From assembly GCF_026968045.1 (NCBI RefSeq), contig NZ_JAPVBQ010000001.1, forward strand, positions 1,067,238-1,131,237: a stretch of DNA of 64,000 bases. The letters are read 5' to 3'. Each line of letters opens with the position of its first letter. The first letter of the stretch is position 1. The stretch is from Modestobacter sp. VKM Ac-2977. GTDB lineage: Bacteria; Actinomycetota; Actinomycetes; Mycobacteriales; Geodermatophilaceae. The notes beneath the pieces were generated by a model. It ran no database searches and was not told the origin of the DNA. It saw only the letters and a program-made list of their open reading frames with translations. A program made the position numbers and the translations under genes. Shown piece by piece: positions 1,764-18,513 of the stretch.

Positions 1764-1836
1764 TCCCCCGTAGCTCAATTGGCAGAGCATGCGACTGTTA
1801 ATCGCAGGGTTATAGGTTCAAGTCCTATCGGGGGAG
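1764..1836 (+). tRNA. tRNA-Asn (GTT)
   Basis: The gene folds as a standard cloverleaf: acceptor TCCCCCG (1764-1770) pairs with CGGGGGA (1829-1835), the D arm starts TAGCTCAATTGGCAGAGCA, and the anticodon GTT is at 1797-1799 in the loop CTGTTAA. The T arm is ATAGGTTCAAGTCCTAT and the discriminator base is G1836. CCA is not encoded. The 3' half is the integration target of the adjacent island and is duplicated at 18437. Confidence 0.97.
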
Positions 1837-1878
1837 CAAGCCAAGGCCCTGACCAGCGGAGACGCCGGTCAGGGCCTT
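1802..1878 (+). repeat. attL: 3' half of tRNA-Asn plus terminator
   Basis: This 77-bp segment is repeated directly at 18437-18513. The first 38 bp (anticodon arm, variable region, T arm, acceptor) are identical. Beyond that only positions 1840, 1841 and 1871 differ. The site begins inside the anticodon stem, the usual crossover region for tRNA-targeting tyrosine integrases, and the integrase gene starts 69 bp downstream. It marks the left end of the island. Confidence 0.92.
1845..1876 (+). terminator. hairpin downstream of tRNA-Asn
   Basis: GGCCCTGACC (1845-1854) pairs perfectly with GGTCAGGGCC (1867-1876) across a 12-base loop. It is followed by TTACTTCTTCCC rather than a clean T run. It lies inside the duplicated att segment. 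The right-hand copy (18480-18511) has one G-U pair and is followed by TTTT. Confidence 0.8.
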
Positions 1879-1946: not shown

Positions 1947-3182
1947 GTGGGCCGTCCACCGCTACCGCTGGGCACCAGCGGCAAGACGCTGTTCGCCACC
2001 ATGCCCAACGGCATGGTCAAGGCCCGGGTCAAGTTCCGCGACTTCGACGGCGAGGTCCGGCTGGTCTCCAAGACCGCCTCCTCCCGAGCGGCCGCCGAGC
2101 GGGCGCTGAAGGTGGAGCTGACCGTCCGCCGCTCTCCCGGAGGCACCGGCTCGCTGACCGCGGGCAGCCGGGTGTCGGCGTTGGCCGACGCGTGGCTGGC
2201 CGCCGACCACGGCTGGTCGACCGGCACCGAGCGCACCTACCGCTCGGCGGTGCGCGCCCAAGTCGTCCCCACCTTCGGCCGGCTCTGCCTGCGCGAAGTC
2301 ACCCCCGGCGTCATCAGCCGGGGGCTGGCCACGATGGCCCAGACCAGCGGCCCCAGCGCGGCCAAGACGGCGCGTGCTTGCCTCTCCGGGATGTTCGCGC
2401 TCGCCATCGCCGACGGTGCGGTGATGGTCAACCCCGTGCGCGACTCCGGGGCCCGGTTGAACTCCAGCGCCAAGAAGGCGCCGCGGGCGTTGACGGTGGG
2501 GGAGACCGCTCGGTTGGTCGAGCTGCTGCGGGGGAGTGCTCGGGCCGCCGAGCTGGACGTCGTCGACCTGATCGACTGGATGCTCGCCACGGGCGCGCGG
2601 ATCGGCGAGGCGGTGGCACTGCGGACCGGTGAGACCGCCGGCCGGCCGCTGCTGGACCTGGATGCCGGCACCTGGGAGGTCAACGCCACTGCGGTGCGTG
2701 TGCCTAAGAGGGGGATGGTCGTCCAGCCGCGGACCAAGACCGCGGCCGGCTGGCGGATCATCGCCGTGCCGGAGTTCGCGATCAACATGGTGCGCCGCCG
2801 GCTGACGTCACCACACCGGCCGGACACCGAGCTGGTGTTCCCGGCGCCGGTGGCCGGCACGCTGCGCGACCCGAACAGCGTTTCCGGTGACCTGCGCCAG
2901 CTGCTGGACTCCTTCGAGTGCGAGGCGTGCGACGGGACCGGCTTCCAGCCGGCGACGAAGACGACGGCTGCTGGCCGACCGCTCCGCTGCACCGAGGGCC
3001 CGTGGTCCTGGGTCACCTCGCACACCTTCCGCAAGACCGCCGCAACGCGCTTGGACGAAGCCGGCTTCACCCCGCGCCAGGTCGCCGACCAGCTCGGCCA
3101 CGCCAACCCGTCGATGACCCTGGACGTCTACTTCGGCCGCCAGGTGGTCAGCGCCGAAGCCGCCCGAGTCCTCGGTCGGTGA
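1947..3182 (+). CDS. int: tyrosine recombinase, island integrase
   Basis: A 411-aa phage-type integrase starting at GTG 1947. The N-terminal part (about 1-65) resembles an AP2-like arm-binding domain. Residues 75-165 form the SAM-like core-binding domain. The catalytic domain has the complete set R218 (TGARIGE), K264, H359-x-x-R362 (SHTFRK), H385 (LGHAN) and nucleophile Y395 (DVYFGR). A short cysteine-bearing insertion (CEACDG at 325-330 and C348) sits between the second and third catalytic blocks and may bind zinc. The gene lies directly beside tRNA-Asn and its duplicated 3' end, so it is the integrase of this island, catalysing site-specific integration and, with an excisionase, excision. 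It looks intact. Confidence 0.95.
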   Translation: MGRPPLPLGTSGKTLFATMPNGMVKARVKFRDFDGEVRLVSKTASSRAAAERALKVELTVRRSPGGTGSLTAGSRVSALADAWLAADHGWSTGTERTYRSAVRAQVVPTFGRLCLREVTPGVISRGLATMAQTSGPSAAKTARACLSGMFALAIADGAVMVNPVRDSGARLNSSAKKAPRALTVGETARLVELLRGSARAAELDVVDLIDWMLATGARIGEAVALRTGETAGRPLLDLDAGTWEVNATAVRVPKRGMVVQPRTKTAAGWRIIAVPEFAINMVRRRLTSPHRPDTELVFPAPVAGTLRDPNSVSGDLRQLLDSFECEACDGTGFQPATKTTAAGRPLRCTEGPWSWVTSHTFRKTAATRLDEAGFTPRQVADQLGHANPSMTLDVYFGRQVVSAEAARVLGR

Positions 3183-3313
3183 CCGGGTCCCATCCTTCGG
3201 GTGACCGGGGCCATGCTGCTGCTTGGCGTCGCCTGGGGATGCACGGTCCGCGACGGCGAGTTGTTCGTCGATGAGCCCGTCAAGGAAGTTGGACCTGTAG
3301 GAGAGTGGGCGGG

Positions 3314-4828
3314 GTGGAGAAGCGCTATTACCAAGTCTTCGTCAGCTCGACCTACATCGACCTTGTGGACGAGCGCGAGCAGGTGACAGAGCAGCTGCTG
3401 AGGTCTCGCTGCATCCCGTCTGGGATGGAACTTTTCACGGCCAGCGGACGGCCGCCGTGGGACGTGATCACGTCAGCGATCGAAACCACCGACTACATGG
3501 TCTTGATCCTCGGGGGCCGCTACGGCAGCGTCGGCGACGACGGGCGGAGCTTTACTGAACGGGAATACGACGAGGCTCAAAGCCGCGGGATTCCTGTTCT
3601 CGCTTTCCTGCATGAAGACGTCGACAGCCTGCCCCGACGGAACGTCGACGTTGGCGAGGAGGGTGAGTCGCTGGCGAAGCTTCGCGCCAAGGTCAGCGAC
3701 AGCGAGCGCCAAACGGTTCAGTTCTGGAGTGACGCCCGCGACCTTGCTCAGAAGGTCGGTACGGCCATCCGAGAAGCGATCATCAACGAGCCGCGACCGG
3801 GATGGGTGCGCGGTGGCGATGTGCGCGTCGTAGATGAGGGCTCCGGGAGCGACCAGGAGAGCGACCAACGAGTTCCCCCGCTACCCTCGCTGACCTCAAC
3901 CTCCGACGAGTTGCGCGAGACGCTGGCTCTGCCGGGAGGCGAGGCGCGTCTTGAACGCTCCATTGGCACTGCGATCAAGCAGGTCAAGCGTCTGCCGTTC
4001 ATCGTCGGGGATGCCGAGTACGACGGTGTGGCCAACCTCGATGCCGAGCGCGCTCAGAGAATGGCGGCTCTTGAGGATGCGGCTCCACCGCTCGTCTTGA
4101 GCGTTGCCGCAGCCGCGCGGTGGGGGACGCCAGACCTAGATCAATACTTGTGTGATTTGGTTGAGGAACTGAACAGCAGCCCCCGGCGCAGCGGATACAC
4201 GAGCTTGATCGACATGATGCGGGCCCCTGCCGTGCTCGTTTTCACTGCGGCCGGCGTAGGGGCGTGCGCCGGGAAACGGGACGATTTAGTCGGGTTGCTT
4301 CTGTCCGAGGAGTTGACCATGGACGACCCCATGCGCGACGAGGATGCTCCGGTAGCGAGCCTCCTCTCGGCTGGGCTCCTGTACCCGTACGGCTGGCCCA
4401 GTAAGTCCATGCGGGAGTACTTCGAGAAGGCACTCGGGGCTGACCCGGCTTGGGAGGGGTCAGTGCTCGACCGAGCATGGGAGCGCTGGGAGTATCTCGC
4501 CGCGGTCGCGCGGCTTCACCTCAGTGAGCGCTTCCAGACGCCGCGAGGCGAGCGTCCGTACCTACGGATCGAGGATGGTGCTGGCAGGGCGCGTCGGACA
4601 ACCGTTGGCAAGAGCATTCGCAGGCAGGTCAAGCAAGCAGGAGAAGCTCACCCGCTGATGCGGGCCGGCTTGTGTAAGGGAAGCGCAGAGGCATTCGAGG
4701 GCGCTGCTGCGAGCCTCGACGGCGACTATGGGGCGTGGGGCGAGAACCAAGACTTCGCAGCTCTCCCAGGCATGGGCGGCGCTCTACCGAGCGGCCCGCA
4801 CTACCCCGGCAGTCGATCGGGCTTCTGA
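3314..4828 (+). CDS. DUF4062-domain protein, candidate defence effector
   Basis: This protein is about 504 aa. I prefer GTG 3314 because AGGAGA ends about nine bases upstream; the GTG at 3305 is too close to that site. The N-terminus (KRYYQVFVSSTYIDLVDERE, then LILGGRYGSV and SFTEREYDEA) is a typical DUF4062 domain, a Rossmann-like fold related in shape to TIR and usually placed at the N-terminus of large signalling or NTPase proteins. Here no NTPase follows. Residues about 180-500 are a helical region I do not recognise, with no Walker motif, membrane segment or repeat. Base composition is visibly less G+C-rich than in the flanking chromosome. Its place in an island with other immunity-like genes suggests a phage-defence or stress-response role; that is inference. 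Confidence 0.75.
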   Translation: MEKRYYQVFVSSTYIDLVDEREQVTEQLLRSRCIPSGMELFTASGRPPWDVITSAIETTDYMVLILGGRYGSVGDDGRSFTEREYDEAQSRGIPVLAFLHEDVDSLPRRNVDVGEEGESLAKLRAKVSDSERQTVQFWSDARDLAQKVGTAIREAIINEPRPGWVRGGDVRVVDEGSGSDQESDQRVPPLPSLTSTSDELRETLALPGGEARLERSIGTAIKQVKRLPFIVGDAEYDGVANLDAERAQRMAALEDAAPPLVLSVAAAARWGTPDLDQYLCDLVEELNSSPRRSGYTSLIDMMRAPAVLVFTAAGVGACAGKRDDLVGLLLSEELTMDDPMRDEDAPVASLLSAGLLYPYGWPSKSMREYFEKALGADPAWEGSVLDRAWERWEYLAAVARLHLSERFQTPRGERPYLRIEDGAGRARRTTVGKSIRRQVKQAGEAHPLMRAGLCKGSAEAFEGAAASLDGDYGAWGENQDFAALPGMGGALPSGPHYPGSRSGF

Positions 4829-8339: not shown

Positions 8340-9785
8340 TTAGTGGTTGTCGCTTGGGTTGTCCTCAGGCTCATCCGCCTCGTCTCCCGGCAACGGGGTG
8401 CCCGCGAGCAATGCGGTCACGTCTGCTTCGTCGGTGGGATCGCGGTACGCCAGGATCGTTAGCGCAGTGTGCGTGAGTGTCGCCAGGTCGGTATCGGGCT
8501 TCGCGTCGAGCATCATCTCCGTGAAGTCAGCGGTGATCTCAGACCGCTCGTCACCGAAACCCGTCGCGACCGTCACGGAGGGCAGGTAGAACGAGTCGTC
8601 CGCGGTTTCGATGAACGCGCCGATGCGCTGCTTCATGTCTTGCGTCGATTCCTGCGCCCCGTACTGGCTTCTGGTCGTGACGCCATTTAGGTCCACCGCC
8701 GTCACGGTGTATGTCTGCAGGCTTGGCAGGAGGTCGTCCCAGCGCGCAGACGTCAGGCTGCGATTCGCGGTCTTCAACTTCTGGGCCTTGTTGGCGAACG
8801 TCAGCCGCCAGTTGCCAACCTCCGCTGACAGGAGGTTGCCGGTCACGGACCATCGGGGCGTGCGGTCGTAGTCCTCGTCGTCGATCGCCTCGGACCGCGC
8901 GCTCACCAGTACACGCTTGGCGCGCCACAGCCCGCTCGCCGCGGAGGCCAGCGGCGTCAGGTCGAGGTCGGCGAACTGGTGCCACATACGCTCGATTTCG
9001 GCTAGGTCAATCAACCGCGCCACCGCCACCCAGAAGTCACGATCGCGGGTCACGCCTTCGAGGCTGAGAAGATACGGCACCAGTTCACGGATCTCGGTCT
9101 CGCTCAGCCGACCTGACAGCAACAGCGCCTCGAGGCTCGGCTCGTCCGCGAGGGCTTGTTCGACGATGCCGAAGACGCGGTTGATGCGGAGCACCGCGTC
9201 CTCGGAGAAGACCGACGAGACGGTCTCGGAGAACGCGTCCAACTCCGCCTGCGTGATCTGCCGGTCACGAGGAAGAACGAGGTTCTCGACGTCGGATCCG
9301 AGGATCGCGCCCTTCGCACTACGTACGATGCTGGACCTCACCAGCCCAAGCACCGGGTCGGGAGTCGCCGTGGTCGGGGTCAGGTCGTCGAGTGCGGCCA
9401 CCGTGGTGACCAACACCCGGCTCTCACGGTGTTCTCTGGCACGGGCGCGGACTCGCTGGGTCTCCTCCTCCGGCTCTTCCGGGGCCAGCGAGAGGTAGAA
9501 CGCCGTGAGGTCGTTCCGGTCGAAGTCCGCCAGGTCGCCGGATGCGCGGCCCGATCGTAACGAGTGCCGCAGGAATACGGGGCGCTCGAACGCCTCCCGC
9601 CCCTTGCCCCACTGCATGATGAGATCGGGCACGTACGAGTGGTTGAAATAGCCGGTGATATCGGTCGTCGCAGTCGGGTCCAGGCTGCGCAATTCCTGCG
9701 CCACGACCTGATGCACCCGGTGCCCTGCCTCCTGAGCATCCGAAGTGTCCAGCGCGGCTGAGATCTGCTCCACGAACGTGCTCAT
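8340..9785 (-). CDS. unrecognised 481-aa partner of a nuclease-like protein
   Basis: The start is ATG 9785 and it overlaps the stop of the upstream nuclease-like gene by four bases (ATGA), so the two are a coupled operon. I do not recognise the family. Residues 46-75 (GYFNHSYVPDLIMQW, then RPVFLRH) look like the PD and following strand of a PD-(D/E)XK fold in which the (D/E)xK strand has lost its acid and lysine. Residues about 100-300 are mostly helical with many acidic pairs. Residues 300-440 are strand-rich (WSVTGNLLSAEVGNWRLTFA and TYTVTAVDLNGVTTR). The C-terminus is very acidic. There is no membrane segment, no P-loop and no signal peptide. A regulatory, sensor or DNA-binding subunit of a two-component restriction-like system is a reasonable guess, no more. 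Base composition is less G+C-rich than the chromosome. Confidence 0.7.
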   Translation of the reverse strand: MSTFVEQISAALDTSDAQEAGHRVHQVVAQELRSLDPTATTDITGYFNHSYVPDLIMQWGKGREAFERPVFLRHSLRSGRASGDLADFDRNDLTAFYLSLAPEEPEEETQRVRARAREHRESRVLVTTVAALDDLTPTTATPDPVLGLVRSSIVRSAKGAILGSDVENLVLPRDRQITQAELDAFSETVSSVFSEDAVLRINRVFGIVEQALADEPSLEALLLSGRLSETEIRELVPYLLSLEGVTRDRDFWVAVARLIDLAEIERMWHQFADLDLTPLASAASGLWRAKRVLVSARSEAIDDEDYDRTPRWSVTGNLLSAEVGNWRLTFANKAQKLKTANRSLTSARWDDLLPSLQTYTVTAVDLNGVTTRSQYGAQESTQDMKQRIGAFIETADDSFYLPSVTVATGFGDERSEITADFTEMMLDAKPDTDLATLTHTALTILAYRDPTDEADVTALLAGTPLPGDEADEPEDNPSDNH

Positions 9786-10369
9786 GCGCGGTACCCCTCT
9801 TTCCGCAGGTGGTACAACGCCAACCCCGCCTCATCTTTGGTCAGCCGGAGATTCACCTGCCGCTGATGCACCAACAGGACCCCAATCCGTTGTGCGACCT
9901 TGGACAATAGGTCGTCATCTATCACCGCTCCATCGAGGAGACTGCCGTACTCCTCAATGCATCCCCGCAGGTGAGTCACACTCAACAACTCGTTCCATTT
10001 CGTCTGGGAGAAGGGGTGGTACGTCACCCACAGGAACTCTCGCTCGGCGTCACCTCCCATCGAGTTGATCGTGTGCACCGTGTTGGCGTACGCGACGGCC
10101 AGGAACTCGCGGTAACCCTCCGCCTGACCACCGACAGTCGTGTACTTCTTGCACTCGACGCTCACCGGACGGGGCCGCTCGTCGGGCGCTCCCACGGTGT
10201 TCCCCTCCAGGTCGAGCGCCTTCTTGGTTCCGTCGGGACACTCACGGGTGCACATGGGCTCGCTGTCCCAGACCGTGTACGAGAACGCGAATCTCGTCGT
10301 GGCCTCTAGCCACTCCTTGATTTCGTGCAGACCCTCGTGCCCGATCCGATGTGCAGTTTCCTTTGCCAC
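9782..10369 (-). CDS. PD-(D/E)XK nuclease-like protein, 195 aa
   Basis: I place the start at GTG 10369 because AGGAGG lies eight bases upstream; the longer frame to 10426 would use TTG without such a site. The protein begins with an amphipathic helix rich in E (GHEGLHEIKEWLEA, residues 10-23). Then come D53 in KALDLEGN and the strand VSVECKKY with E72-C-K74. Helix, acid, ExK is the core pattern of PD-(D/E)XK nucleases such as Mrr-type restriction enzymes. Two cysteines (C40, C44) precede the core and could bind metal. The C-terminal half is helical and ends HLRKEGYRA. It is first in a coupled pair with the 481-aa gene. It probably cuts DNA as part of a defence system; substrate and trigger are unknown. 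Confidence 0.65.
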   Translation of the reverse strand: MAKETAHRIGHEGLHEIKEWLEATTRFAFSYTVWDSEPMCTRECPDGTKKALDLEGNTVGAPDERPRPVSVECKKYTTVGGQAEGYREFLAVAYANTVHTINSMGGDAEREFLWVTYHPFSQTKWNELLSVTHLRGCIEEYGSLLDGAVIDDDLLSKVAQRIGVLLVHQRQVNLRLTKDEAGLALYHLRKEGYRA

Positions 10370-11243: not shown

Positions 11244-14200
11244 TCACCGCTCCACGCTGTCGAGCTCCTCGTCGATGGATCCAGCCTGTAAGACGACCAG
11301 TTCGTCGATGAGGTCTAGGCACCGTTGCCGGACGACCGGGTCGCTGTGCTGGCTGTGCAGCCGGAGCGCGAGCCGGACGACGTACATCGCGTCAGCCGAC
11401 GCCGCGGAGGCGAGGTCGGCGATTTCGCTGCGGTGTGCGGAGACGAACCGCTCGCACAAGTCGAGCGTCACGGCCGGCAGCGGCCGACGGGTCTCCTCCA
11501 GGAACATCAGCATGCTACTGGCGTCGTCGGCCGCGGCCGGGCTGGCGGCGTACGAGCGCAGCAGGTCTGCATGCTGCTCCAACGAGTGGCCGGTGAGGTG
11601 GTGGAAGGCCCGCTGAGCGGCGTCCCGGACGGGCTGCTCGGTGTCGTTGAACGCCGCCGAGAGCAGGGCGGTGCACCGGCCCCATCGTGTGGCCGAGGGC
11701 AGGTTGTCGGCGGCCACTTCGGTGACGGCTACACGGCTCCCCACGTGGTCACCGGCGAGTAGCGCATCGACCTGGGCGTCGAGCGCAGGATTGCCCAGCG
11801 ATGCGACGGTGAGTAGCCGTGCACCGGCCTGCCGTGCGTCGTCGTCGTCGCTCGAGGTCATCCTGTCCAGCAGCGCGGCCAGGTCGGCGTAGCGGTCGCG
11901 GATGACGGCGTGAAACACGAACAGCTCGACGCCGTTCGTGCCGAGCAGCGCGTCCGGTGCCTCCAAAACCAGGCTGGAGAGCAGGTCCAGAGCGAGATCA
12001 GGATCGAACTGCAGCAGCTGGGCCACGGCAGCGGCTGTTGCCGCGCGGACGCCCCAACTCGGGTCGCCCGCCAACGTGCTGAGTGCGGGACGCAGGACGG
12101 CCAGCCGCGCCGGTTCCGCCGCCAGGAGGGCTCCCACAGCGCGGGCGACGGCGCCGCGGGCGGAGTTCCAGCCGACGCTGTCGATCCGCCTCGCCGTAGG
12201 CGGGTCATCCACGCTCCAGTCGGGATGCTCCTCGGGGTCTACGCCGGTGGCGATGTCTCCGAGCATGGTCAGCAGTTCATCGGGCACCGAACCAGCTGCC
12301 TGGGCGCCGATCAGCTGGGCCACGTCGCGGTCGCTGTCGCCACCACGGGATCGGACGTGCTCCAGCAGGGGGGTGAGTACGTCGATGTCCAGGCGGGAAT
12401 CGACCAGGCCGCGCAGGATGGCATTGACGTAGGCCCCGGGGACCTCATCGGGGATGTCCAGCAGCAGGCGGGCGAACCGCTCCGGGTCCTCTCGGGTCAG
12501 GTCTTCCAGGACCTGCCCCTGGGTCTGCGCATCCCCGATCATCCGGCCGTCGGCGCCGAAAGACGTGGGCCGGATGCCGTGGCGCCGCATGGCCCGAAGC
12601 CACTGGGCGTCGGTCATGTGCCTGGCGCGCTCGGAGGGAATCGGTGGCGGCACCTGCCCCCCGGTGATCCCGCGTGGGGGCGGCACGTCAGTGATGCCGA
12701 ACTTACGCCGCAGCTCCTCCAGCCGACGGTTCACCGCTGCACCACGCCGGGTCGGGTCTAGGGCGTTGAGCAGACCCAGTTCGGTGCGGCCGCGGGCCCG
12801 GAAGCCGTCGATGCTGCGCTCCCGCGGCGTGGCGTAGTACAGGCACGCGTTGCGCAGCTGGTCGAGCACCGGCTCCCGTAGGTGCGGGGTGATCTCCGCG
12901 AGGAGCTGCCGGGACAGCGACGACCGCTCATCGGCGTAGCCGACGGTGAAGGCTCCCGGCGTGGCGAGGAGCCAGGCGGCGGACTGCTCGGCGAAGACCG
13001 TCGGGTTGCCCAAGAAGCCGCGGATCAACAGCACCGCGGACGACTCGTATCGGTCCCCGCTCAGGGCGGCCAGCGGCGGTGCCGCCGCGTCGGGGTCGAG
13101 CCGAGCCAGCTCCGCGAGCGCGGCCCCCAGGGCCTCGAGCAGTGCGTCGCTGAACCGGAGCCGGCTGCCGTAGATCCGCGGGTACCAGACCGCGTCGAGG
13201 GTCAGGAGGTCGTCATCGGTCCACGACGGGCGAGCTGTGGTGCCGATGATCTCCCGGACCGGGGGCAGGACTCGGGCTACGAACTCAGCCGGTGCCGTCT
13301 GGGCCAGCACCGCCACCGCCGACTCCAGGCTGGTGCCGCGGGTGCGCGGCAGGGGACCGGCGTCGTTGAACGGACCGGCGTCGGTGTTGACCGTCACCGC
13401 CTGCGCTCGGCGAAGCGTCGCCTCCACCAGCTCCGCGCCCCAGGCCGGCTGGTGCTGGGCGAGCATCCGGGCCGCATGCCACAGGTCGCTATTCGATGTG
13501 CCGTCGAAGTCGCCGTCAGCGATGGCGGTCAGCAGCTCGGTGAACCACACCCGAGAGGTGTGCAGGTCTGCTCGGCGGAGCAGGGCCCGTCGCTGCGCCC
13601 GCCACTGCTCGGGGGCAAGGCCACTCTTGAGCAGCGCCAGCGCCCGCGTGGAGTGCTCAGGGGCCGCCCCGCTGATCGCCCACCGGGCGCGCTCGGCGAG
13701 GTCGCTGTCGTCCGCGCGGAGCCAGGCCTCCCACTGCCCGACCTCGTCGAGGACCGGGAACCAGCCAGGATTGCGACGCAGTACTTGCCACAGCCGGGCT
13801 TGCAGCGGGGAGGCCTCGGTGGCGGTGAGCGGCGCGATCAGCTGCCACTCCTCGATGCTTGGGTCCGCCACGGTCTCCAGCAGGGACAGCGCGAGCGCCT
13901 TGAGGTGAAGACGCACGTCCGGGGCGCCGAGCATCCAGCCGAGATCGGCAAGGTAGGTCCGGCGATCGCTGCTGCGTTGGTAGGTGAGGATCTGGCGCAC
14001 CTGGGCGCGGCGGAACAGGTCCTGCTCGCCGGAGACGAGCAGGTCCCGCAGCGTCCGGCCGTCGGCGATGAAGGTACGGGCGAAGCAGTAGTCGAAGAAG
14101 GTCTCGTGGACGAAGGTCACCTGCCGGGCGGTCACCTCGAGGACGCCTTCGGAGGCCATCACGTTCAGCTGTTGGTCGAACGCGTCGAGCCGCGGCCGTG

Positions 14201-15719
14201 GTGCGGTGAGCTGCTGCTGGTTGCTCATGATGGTGACCAGCACGTCGATGACGTCCAGCCACTCATCGACGCCGTTCCGGGCGTCGCGGCAGGCGGCGCG
14301 CTTCACCTCCCAGAAGGCGTCGTACAGGTCGGTGAGGCTGCGGGCCTGGTCGACCTCGGAGACGCCCTTCTGTGCCAGATCCACATAGACGGCGAGGTTG
14401 ATGGGCACGGTGAGCAGATGGCGCAGCGGGCCGGCCGAAGGCGCTTCCAACCCGGCCAGCGCGAACGCGGTGTTGACCTGCGCCGCGGTGAGCTCGGCGA
14501 CGTCAAGGGGCAAGACCTCTGGGGTCGCGGCGAGCGTGCGCAGCTCGCGGTCGTTATCGAGGTCGAACCTTCGACAGGCCAGCAGGATGCGCAGATTCGG
14601 ATGGCTGTCGGCCTCGGTGAGCAGCTGTCCCAAGAGCTCGATGCGGTCCGGGTGCCGACCCGAGATCTTGCTCAGCGCGTCGAGCTGGTCTATGACCAGC
14701 AACGCGGGGCCGCCCCGGGCCAGGCCGGCGAGTACCGTCACCGGGGAGTCGGGTAGGTCCAGCTGCTGGCCGAGCTGCGGCGGCGTGCGGGCGTCGGACC
14801 ACCGGTCGGCGGACAGCACCAGGACCGGCCAGCCGAGGTCGCGGGCGCCGGCCGTGACTTGCCCGGTGACGACGCTCTTCCCACAGCCGGCGCCGCCGGC
14901 GACAAGCACCCGACCGCCAGCGCGCAGATGTGACAGGGCCTGGTCTGCCTCCTTGCGAGGCAGCTCATGCCCGCCGACGTGCGACCGGCGCAGCCGGGCC
15001 AGGTAGTTGATGGTGATGCTCTCGACCGTCGCGACGAGGCGGGCATCCTGGTCGAGGTTGCGTGCGGTGATGCCTTCGGGCGTCAGCACCTCCCATACGT
15101 CCGCCGAGGTCAGCACCCGGTGGACCGAGTCGTCGGCCAGCTGCGCCAACAGTGCCGCCGCGACGGTGGGGCTGCCCGTCACCGCGACCTTGAGCCGGTC
15201 GAGCACCCACTGCCCGAGCTGCTTCTCGTCGATGGTTCGGACGTTCACCAGGTGCAGAGCCCGGTAGACCTCTTCCTCACTCGGGTTGGACCACGCCCGA
15301 CGCAGCCGCTTGAAGTGATCAGCCGGGTCCTTCGCCTTGAGGAACTCGGTGTGGAACTCCTGCCAGTCGGCGGCGTCGATCGCGCGCTCGGTCAGCTCGT
15401 GGAGCTCGGTGGCGCCGGTGCCGCTGACGAAGACGCACTGATCGCCCTTCTTGAGCTTCGCCCACCAGGGTTGGAGGATGCCGTCGTTGGCCATCGCGTT
15501 GACGGTCCACGGGCCGGCTGCCCGTTGGCGCTTGGCCTGATGCCACTGGGCTTGGCCGTCGGCAACCAGCCGGAACTCCGCTCCGACGCCGTCTTCGCCG
15601 GGAACTTCGATGCGCAACGACTCGGCGCGGCCGGTGAGCAACTCGATGAGCACCCAGATGGTCCAGCGACGCTCGAAGCTGTTGCCCGCCTTGTCCGACG
15701 GGCCACCAGCAAGCGGCAT
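11244..15719 (-). CDS. Avs-like STAND NTPase with N-terminal nuclease-like domain, 1491 aa
   Basis: Residues 10-70 look like a Cap4-type PD-(D/E)XK domain: NSFERRWTIWVLIELL, E38, D43 and Q61-x-K63 in WHQAKR. A linker leads to a STAND/NACHT-like ATPase with P-loop GGAGCGKS (275-282), Walker B LVIDQLDA (341-348) and a sensor arginine block LLACRRF (379-385). A winged-helix-like part ending FVHETFFDYCFAR follows. From about residue 600 to the end the protein is alpha-helical with HEAT/ARM-like repeats (for example PSWGVRAATAAAVAQLLQF). Effector, STAND core and helical sensor is the layout of Avs/bNLR antiphage proteins, which oligomerise on sensing a phage protein and then cut DNA. Start ATG 15719 follows GAAGAGG. 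The gene is unbroken. The exact family is not certain. Confidence 0.8.
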   Translation of the reverse strand: MPLAGGPSDKAGNSFERRWTIWVLIELLTGRAESLRIEVPGEDGVGAEFRLVADGQAQWHQAKRQRAAGPWTVNAMANDGILQPWWAKLKKGDQCVFVSGTGATELHELTERAIDAADWQEFHTEFLKAKDPADHFKRLRRAWSNPSEEEVYRALHLVNVRTIDEKQLGQWVLDRLKVAVTGSPTVAAALLAQLADDSVHRVLTSADVWEVLTPEGITARNLDQDARLVATVESITINYLARLRRSHVGGHELPRKEADQALSHLRAGGRVLVAGGAGCGKSVVTGQVTAGARDLGWPVLVLSADRWSDARTPPQLGQQLDLPDSPVTVLAGLARGGPALLVIDQLDALSKISGRHPDRIELLGQLLTEADSHPNLRILLACRRFDLDNDRELRTLAATPEVLPLDVAELTAAQVNTAFALAGLEAPSAGPLRHLLTVPINLAVYVDLAQKGVSEVDQARSLTDLYDAFWEVKRAACRDARNGVDEWLDVIDVLVTIMSNQQQLTAPRPRLDAFDQQLNVMASEGVLEVTARQVTFVHETFFDYCFARTFIADGRTLRDLLVSGEQDLFRRAQVRQILTYQRSSDRRTYLADLGWMLGAPDVRLHLKALALSLLETVADPSIEEWQLIAPLTATEASPLQARLWQVLRRNPGWFPVLDEVGQWEAWLRADDSDLAERARWAISGAAPEHSTRALALLKSGLAPEQWRAQRRALLRRADLHTSRVWFTELLTAIADGDFDGTSNSDLWHAARMLAQHQPAWGAELVEATLRRAQAVTVNTDAGPFNDAGPLPRTRGTSLESAVAVLAQTAPAEFVARVLPPVREIIGTTARPSWTDDDLLTLDAVWYPRIYGSRLRFSDALLEALGAALAELARLDPDAAAPPLAALSGDRYESSAVLLIRGFLGNPTVFAEQSAAWLLATPGAFTVGYADERSSLSRQLLAEITPHLREPVLDQLRNACLYYATPRERSIDGFRARGRTELGLLNALDPTRRGAAVNRRLEELRRKFGITDVPPPRGITGGQVPPPIPSERARHMTDAQWLRAMRRHGIRPTSFGADGRMIGDAQTQGQVLEDLTREDPERFARLLLDIPDEVPGAYVNAILRGLVDSRLDIDVLTPLLEHVRSRGGDSDRDVAQLIGAQAAGSVPDELLTMLGDIATGVDPEEHPDWSVDDPPTARRIDSVGWNSARGAVARAVGALLAAEPARLAVLRPALSTLAGDPSWGVRAATAAAVAQLLQFDPDLALDLLSSLVLEAPDALLGTNGVELFVFHAVIRDRYADLAALLDRMTSSDDDDARQAGARLLTVASLGNPALDAQVDALLAGDHVGSRVAVTEVAADNLPSATRWGRCTALLSAAFNDTEQPVRDAAQRAFHHLTGHSLEQHADLLRSYAASPAAADDASSMLMFLEETRRPLPAVTLDLCERFVSAHRSEIADLASAASADAMYVVRLALRLHSQHSDPVVRQRCLDLIDELVVLQAGSIDEELDSVER

Positions 15720-18436: not shown

Positions 18437-18513
18437 TCGCAGGGTTATAGGTTCAAGTCCTATCGGGGGAGCAAAGCAAGGCCCTGACCAGCGGAGACGC
18501 CGGTCGGGGCCTT
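18437..18513 (+). repeat. attR: duplicate of tRNA-Asn 3' half
   Basis: This 77-bp copy of 1802-1878 has 3 mismatches; the first 38 bp are identical. The 5' half of the tRNA is absent here, so this copy is not a tRNA gene. It marks the right end of the island; recombination with attL would release about 16.6 kb and restore tRNA-Asn next to the better terminator at 18480. Confidence 0.92.
18480..18511. terminator. terminator hairpin inside attR
   Basis: GGCCCTGACC pairs with GGTCGGGGCC with one G-U pair and is followed by TTTT. It is probably the original tRNA-Asn terminator and now also lies just past the end of the minus-strand gene at 18522. Confidence 0.75.

Follow-up and report, generated by a model that had tools for sequence, protein, structure and literature searches.

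Genes A and B, an adjacent pair in a tRNA island of Modestobacter sp. VKM Ac-2977, probably constitute a mobile stand-alone two-gene immune module, in which the product of A would be the DNA-cleaving effector, and the product of B, its obligate DNA-binding partner gating A. This reading is based on three features observed in defence-rich islands: the two genes are steadily paired, the active site of A is conserved, and the nuclease fold modelled for B is altered. We consider the pair to be a promising candidate antiviral system that the databases lack.

The gene pair and its island

The window, that is, the whole analyzed stretch of 64,000 nucleotides, carries both genes on its minus strand. 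Gene A (9782–10369) is an open reading frame of 195 aa with a GTG start, encoding a predicted PD-(D/E)XK nuclease; its partner, gene B (8340–9785), starts with ATG and encodes 481 aa. The stop codon of A and the start codon of B share the tetranucleotide ATGA (9782..9785 of the minus strand, tcat in the plus-strand sequence), as expected for translational coupling. An alternative start of A, the TTG codon 57 bases upstream of GTG, would yield a protein of 214 aa; GTG is preferred, since the start position across the family agrees with it. The complete operon spans about 2 kb, and its G+C content is lower than that of the whole window (60.9% in A and 65.0% in B vs. 72.1%). Both the overlap and the deviating composition had been noted in the original prediction, made from the sequence of this region, and are reproduced here.

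The assignment of the pair to a tRNA island is also confirmed. A repeat search yielded two exact 38-bp direct repeats identical to the 3' end of tRNA-Asn, an attL-like one (1802..1839, plus strand) and an attR-like one at the right end of the island (18437..18474, plus strand), and these bound a 16.6-kb island containing the pair; for a 20-bp portion of the repeat, the chance expectation is 0.00 occurrences. The tRNA-Asn gene itself (1764–1837) marks the left end and is accompanied by the tyrosine integrase of the island (1947..3182, plus strand; Pfam domains Phage_integrase and Phage_int_M). The cargo comprises, in addition to the integrase and the A–B pair, a DUF4062 protein, an IS110-family transposase, a STAND protein and a DUF6308 protein.

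Two of these proteins have matches in PADLOC. The DUF4062 protein (3305..4828, plus strand) has the DUF4062 domain at its N-terminus, while its C-terminal part matches the PADLOC candidate system PDC-S65 (E 1.3e-17). The STAND/Avs-like protein of 1491 aa, encoded directly upstream of A (11244..15719, minus strand), features the P-loop GGAGCGKS and a HEAT-like part (Pfam HEAT), and its family matches in PADLOC are weak (PDC-M54A, E 3e-14; Avs2, E 1.4e-4). Its N-terminal WHQAKRQ stretch could be another PD-(D/E)XK domain. This protein is a defence NLR candidate by itself, and constitutes the context of the A–B pair rather than a part of it.

Predicted nuclease fold of A

The structure of A was modelled by AlphaFold2 using an alignment of 44 sequences, plasmid-record sequences excluded (pLDDT 90.0, pTM 0.85). 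The succession of helices and strands, H2–24, E27–32, E49–51/54–58, E68–74, H82–104 and E111–116, has the alpha-beta-beta-beta-alpha-beta topology, that is, the PD-(D/E)XK core defining the superfamily. Of the predicted catalytic positions, E4 is placed in helix 1, strand 2 bears D53, and strand 3 bears E72-x-K74, in the very order read from the sequence initially; all four are invariant in 57 sequences (48 aligned and nine later ones), and the same is true for Q171. Residues G10, L21, G56, P119 and W125 are also invariant in the 48 aligned sequences, and all invariant residues that were rechecked in the nine later sequences retain this status. The Q82-xxx-Y86 pattern, which we take to resemble the motif of RecB-family nucleases, is frequent and not invariant, with Q found in 35 of the 48 sequences.

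According to Foldseek, A comes closest to the solved folds of Avs3 (E 2.6e-4) and Cap4; MspJI, HamA, LmuA and DUF4297-HerA rank next, FokI is also among the matches, and most of them are immune-system nucleases. The TM-scores are modest (0.3–0.5, normalised by the query), which is expected, as the superfamily is diverse. Hence, the nuclease core suggested by the original prediction is present in the modelled fold, and A is predicted to be a metal-dependent PD-(D/E)XK DNA endonuclease.

Altered nuclease fold of B

The AlphaFold2 model of B, built from a 45-sequence alignment, again with plasmid-record sequences excluded (pLDDT 85.5, pTM 0.81), consists of a restriction-endonuclease-like N-domain (approximately 17–133), a helical middle part (approximately 144–283), and an alpha/beta C-terminal part (approximately 288–461). 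The N-domain (H17–35, E40–43, E55–59, E66–73, H79–91, E95–99) has the same topology as A. Its best Foldseek match is FokI (probability 1.00, E 2e-3), followed by Ecl18kI, EcoT38I, BsaWI and BamHI; the similarity is moderate, with the best E-value of about 2e-3, and covers a part of the protein. For the helical middle and C-terminal parts Foldseek found no solved relative, and the library of viral structures yielded weak nuclease-like matches only.

The catalytic acid of the (D/E)xK motif is replaced in B: F71-x-R73 is found instead, with the spacing D54-x16-F71-x-R73. Position 71 is occupied by F in 25 and by Y in 23 of 48 aligned sequences, and by F or Y in the later full-length ones, whereas none of the full-length sequences read lacks P53, D54 or R68. 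A basic residue is retained at position 73: R throughout the 48 aligned sequences, and K in four later ones (L105, L106, L107, L108), where the pseudo-site accordingly reads PD...(F/Y)xK. The stretches VPDLIMQW and PVFLRH, which had drawn attention to this region, are present as described, the former within residues 52–65 (9591..9632, minus strand), where the invariant P53-D54 forms part of the pseudo-active site. The earlier suggestion that residues 46–75 retain a related fold is supported by AlphaFold2 and Foldseek, while the proposed loss of the catalytic strand is not: the strand 66–73 is kept and only the acid is lost. Taken as a model, this supports a restriction-endonuclease-like fold without the catalytic acid in the B N-domain.

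In the 45-sequence alignment eleven positions are invariant, and eight of them (T44, Y46, F47, N48, P53, D54, R68, R73) fall within one 30-residue stretch. Since T44–R73 holds most invariant residues of the 481-aa protein, the cleft appears to matter even without the acid. Outside of it, W252 and W312 are invariant. The helix that follows carries Asp84 in 41 of 48 sequences, and B may have residual or altered catalysis, since in some restriction enzymes the corresponding helix provides the second acid. The N-domain might be retooled rather than dead, being either a PD-(D/E)XK scaffold with new chemistry, or a sensor of nucleotides or DNA ends that gates the nuclease without an ATPase; we regard this as rather unlikely. 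If true, it would make the pair a minimal immune system with a sensor evolved from a restriction enzyme.

Profile–profile comparison of A and B reveals no significant similarity, and recent duplication was rejected as the origin of the two genes for this reason. Neither family nor fold searches detected a P-loop ATPase domain in A or B.

Distribution and evolution of the pair

Loci were collected using B as a query in genomes of the order, in plasmids, and in 84,980 prokaryotic species. In all 53 loci (48 distinct) a homologue of A is situated immediately upstream of B on the same strand, the genes overlapping by four bases or one base in most loci. Co-occurrence of the two genes, required by the original prediction, holds nearly without exception: A is full-length and directly upstream of B in 47 of the 48 distinct relatives collected first, and nine further intact pairs were found later. 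In L042 a C-terminal remnant of A (9787–9993) is all that is left of it beside an intact B, and in L015 gene B is split by a frameshift, as judged against the close relative L016. The reciprocal search of the order sample with A as a query produced twelve genomes, eleven of them identical to those obtained with B; the twelfth (L082) has a truncated A, residues 2–142, and no B in the fetched stretch. The class-wide search for B retrieved ten genomes, namely that of the window, seven with intact pairs, and two with C-terminal fragments of B. Two scans of viral contigs yielded one pair (L071), and the pair is also carried on plasmids.

The two clear remnants, L042 and L082, bear on an improbable explanation, a toxin–antitoxin-like pair, with A being a DNA-damaging toxin neutralised by B through binding, and phage protection, if any, being secondary. 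An intact B next to a residual A, as in L042, is what would be expected if B alone is harmless, and this explanation would also account for the tight operon with translational overlap and for the occurrence on plasmids and a viral contig; L082, on the other hand, retains A without B, although A is truncated there, and B is large (about 460–530 aa) with conservation concentrated in the nuclease-like cleft, which is atypical of an antitoxin, while the loci are islands with varied defence systems.

All named hosts of more than 50 loci belong to Actinomycetota, and represent many families. The pair is rare and patchy: it was found in 11 of 399 genomes of the order sample, in 10 of 385 genomes of the class-wide one, and in 2 of 397 genomes, that is, in roughly 0.5 to 3% of sampled genomes, and the majority of the sampled genomes closely related to that of the window lack it. 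The closest relatives of B come from Modestobacter and Blastococcus (94–95% identity). The proteins from Gordonia otitidis and Humibacillus are 81–84% identical to B of the window, and judging by these identities, their presence would fit horizontal transfer. Streptomyces spongiae NBRC 106415 has two different A–B pairs on separate contigs (L030, L037).

The distance matrices of A and B are correlated (r = 0.906 over 47 pairs), and none of 2000 permutations reached this value. In nine comparisons, dN/dS ranges from 0.02 to 0.13 for A and from 0.04 to 0.21 for B (with four close relatives, 0.06–0.13 and 0.14–0.21, respectively); at dN/dS of 0.02–0.21, both genes are therefore under purifying selection.

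Genomic context of the loci

The neighbours of the pair are strongly enriched in varied known defence systems, and those of control loci are not. Three sets of neighbouring proteins (118, 108 and 102, 328 in total) were scanned against PADLOC-DB at E <= 1e-10 and matched 174, 136 and 143 models, respectively, while a control set of 118 proteins, taken from 10 loci in related genomes, matched 38; since models rather than proteins are counted, this comparison is a qualitative one. The models matched near the pair include those of DISARM (DrmA, DrmD, DrmMII), Lamassu (LmuB, LmuC), Druantia and Gabija, as well as type I and IIG restriction, Mza, PD-Lambda-1 and AbiLi. Among the 38 control models, the best 25 are each matched by at most three proteins, and are mostly of the kinase type (PD-T4-6 etc.). 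Defence islands are known to hold non-defence genes as well.

In individual loci, DISARM (L022), a type IIG enzyme (L050), or the candidate systems PDC-S28 and PDC-M37B (L018, L044) are encoded no more than a few kb from the pair; in annotated plasmids, a type I specificity subunit is encoded in its vicinity, and a type ISP restriction gene adjoins it. Near the pair we also observe proteins of approximately 1840–1870 aa that cluster together (L017:11754-17273, L020:11756-17281, L050:1800-7406); the one from L017 has a weak match only, to the DRT model RT_UG29.

Clustering of the proteins encoded around the pair revealed no constant third gene. The most common shared neighbour is the family of the window's integrase, present in eight loci. 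Proteins with a helicase-associated domain, seen next to the Streptomyces and Arthrobacter plasmid copies, were considered as a possible partner and discarded, being absent from most other loci.

The same data speak to a second improbable reading, with about the same slim chance as the toxin–antitoxin one, in which the pair is not immune at all, but processes or repairs DNA for mobile elements, acting on recombination or replication intermediates with one active and one inactive subunit, similarly to XPF-ERCC1. Eukaryotic repair does employ such heterodimers of an active and an inactive nuclease subunit, the pair does reside in islands and on plasmids, and RdgC and phage exonucleases appear weakly among the matches of B. 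Still, the pair is not constantly linked to any one integrase, transposase or replication gene, has a patchy distribution limited to a small percentage of genomes, and, unlike the control loci, is strongly mixed with defence genes.

Finally, the pair is not accompanied by a cognate methyltransferase; methyltransferases are found nearby in some loci only, and belong to other systems. This argues against classical restriction-modification, where a cognate methyltransferase is encoded together with the nuclease, and makes the term "restriction-like", used in the original prediction, doubtful. The other part of that prediction, an active nuclease with a pseudo-nuclease partner, agrees with the modelled core and catalytic residues of A and with the predicted acid-less fold of B. 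Compared to type II and IIS restriction endonucleases such as FokI, Ecl18kI, BsaWI and BamHI, the N-domain of B has the same predicted fold and keeps the PD, but Phe or Tyr takes the place of the strand-3 Asp or Glu in all B sequences read.

The main rival of the immune module is a type IV-like modification-dependent, or else heterodimeric, restriction endonuclease, in which B would serve as the specificity and DNA-binding subunit, recognising either a modified base or a sequence, and A would directly cut the bound DNA without any sensing of infection. We deem it unlikely, albeit less so than the toxin–antitoxin and mobile-element explanations. The solved folds nearest to B are indeed restriction enzymes, and MspJI and FokI are found among the matches of A; nevertheless, A most closely resembles effector nucleases that belong to signalling systems, and not classical restriction enzymes. 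The lack of an accompanying methyltransferase is consistent with the type IV rule, and one may speculate that a base pocket in B is lined by the invariant W252 and W312; at the same time, no SRA, EVE or other known reader of modified bases is present among the B matches listed, and an NTPase as in McrBC is absent.

Comparison with known systems

Searches of Pfam, NCBIfam, PADLOC and PHROGs yielded no usable match for A or B, and PDB sequence searches, both with single sequences and with profiles, returned nothing usable; likewise, no usable match was obtained when the members of the first A and B alignments were each scanned against Pfam. A phmmer match of A to 4r0g (E 0.0067) was dropped, as it was absent when the search was done with a profile. 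In PADLOC-DB 2.0.0, which dates from 2023 and covers systems published up to that year, no family is matched by A or B at E <= 1. In the open-licence literature we found no description of the pair, of the accessions of its plasmid homologues, or of pseudo-nuclease defence pairs. The views that B belongs to no recognised family and that the pair matches no named system are thus upheld within these libraries.

In many two-gene defences described so far, the nuclease has a second-messenger system, a helicase or an ATPase as its partner, examples being Hachiman (PMC12278908) and HerA-DUF4297 (PMC11291478). Hachiman comprises two genes, and its small nuclease HamA is controlled by the larger helicase HamB within one complex (PMC12278908). 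The A–B pair resembles it in combining a small nuclease with a larger partner, and HamA (8vxy) is among the Foldseek matches of A, but a helicase or ATPase domain is absent from B, and neither gene has a PADLOC or Pfam match that would place it in Hachiman. HerA-DUF4297 also has two components, a nuclease and its ATPase partner (PMC11291478); the nuclease component is again among the matches of A, whereas an ATPase counterpart is not found in B. We set the pair apart from both systems, because neither A nor B shows a P-loop ATPase domain.

The effector nucleases of Cap4, DUF4297 and Avs are similar to A in the core, the ExK motif, the upstream D and the Glu of helix 1, and Avs3 and Cap4 provide its best solved matches. 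In contrast to them, A is a free-standing protein of 195 aa with no SAVED/CARF or STAND domain, is missed by their family models, and has a nuclease-like partner instead of a second-messenger receptor or an NTPase. CBASS with Cap4 is characterised by a SAVED domain and a CD-NTase gene, while A consists of the nuclease core only and has no constant neighbour besides B.

The nuclease superfamily of A is already known, and the novelty would lie in its combination with B. A small PD-(D/E)XK nuclease with an acid-less restriction-endonuclease-like partner and no ATPase is a candidate new combination with respect to the libraries searched, with PADLOC-DB being that of 2023, and to the open-licence literature.

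Proposed function and significance

As an immune module, the pair would most likely operate as follows. A would be the effector performing metal-dependent DNA cleavage. B would bind DNA, or a DNA structure made by the phage, via its pseudo-active cleft and C-terminal part, and would hold A inactive within a presumed A–B complex. A phage trigger would then cause B to license A, or to position it, to cut. Antiphage activity of the pair is what this scheme implies, and the putative sensor role of B is suggested by analogy, by how large the protein is, and by the invariance of residues in its cleft.

A parallel to such an arrangement is provided by XPF-ERCC1 and MUS81-EME1, repair proteins of eukaryotes and archaea, where a catalytic nuclease is combined with a partner of a related fold that lacks the catalytic residues. 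The comparison concerns the mode of action, and the A–B heterodimer is putative. If the proposed scheme is true, the pair would be a prokaryotic counterpart to active/inactive nuclease heterodimers, and a nuclease gated by an acid-less restriction-endonuclease-like partner would represent a new design of the immune trigger.

Actinobacteria are under-sampled in the discovery of defence systems, and many more such systems may await there (Georjon et al., 2023; PMC10482375). The A–B pair of this phylum, being small and complete, is directly testable.
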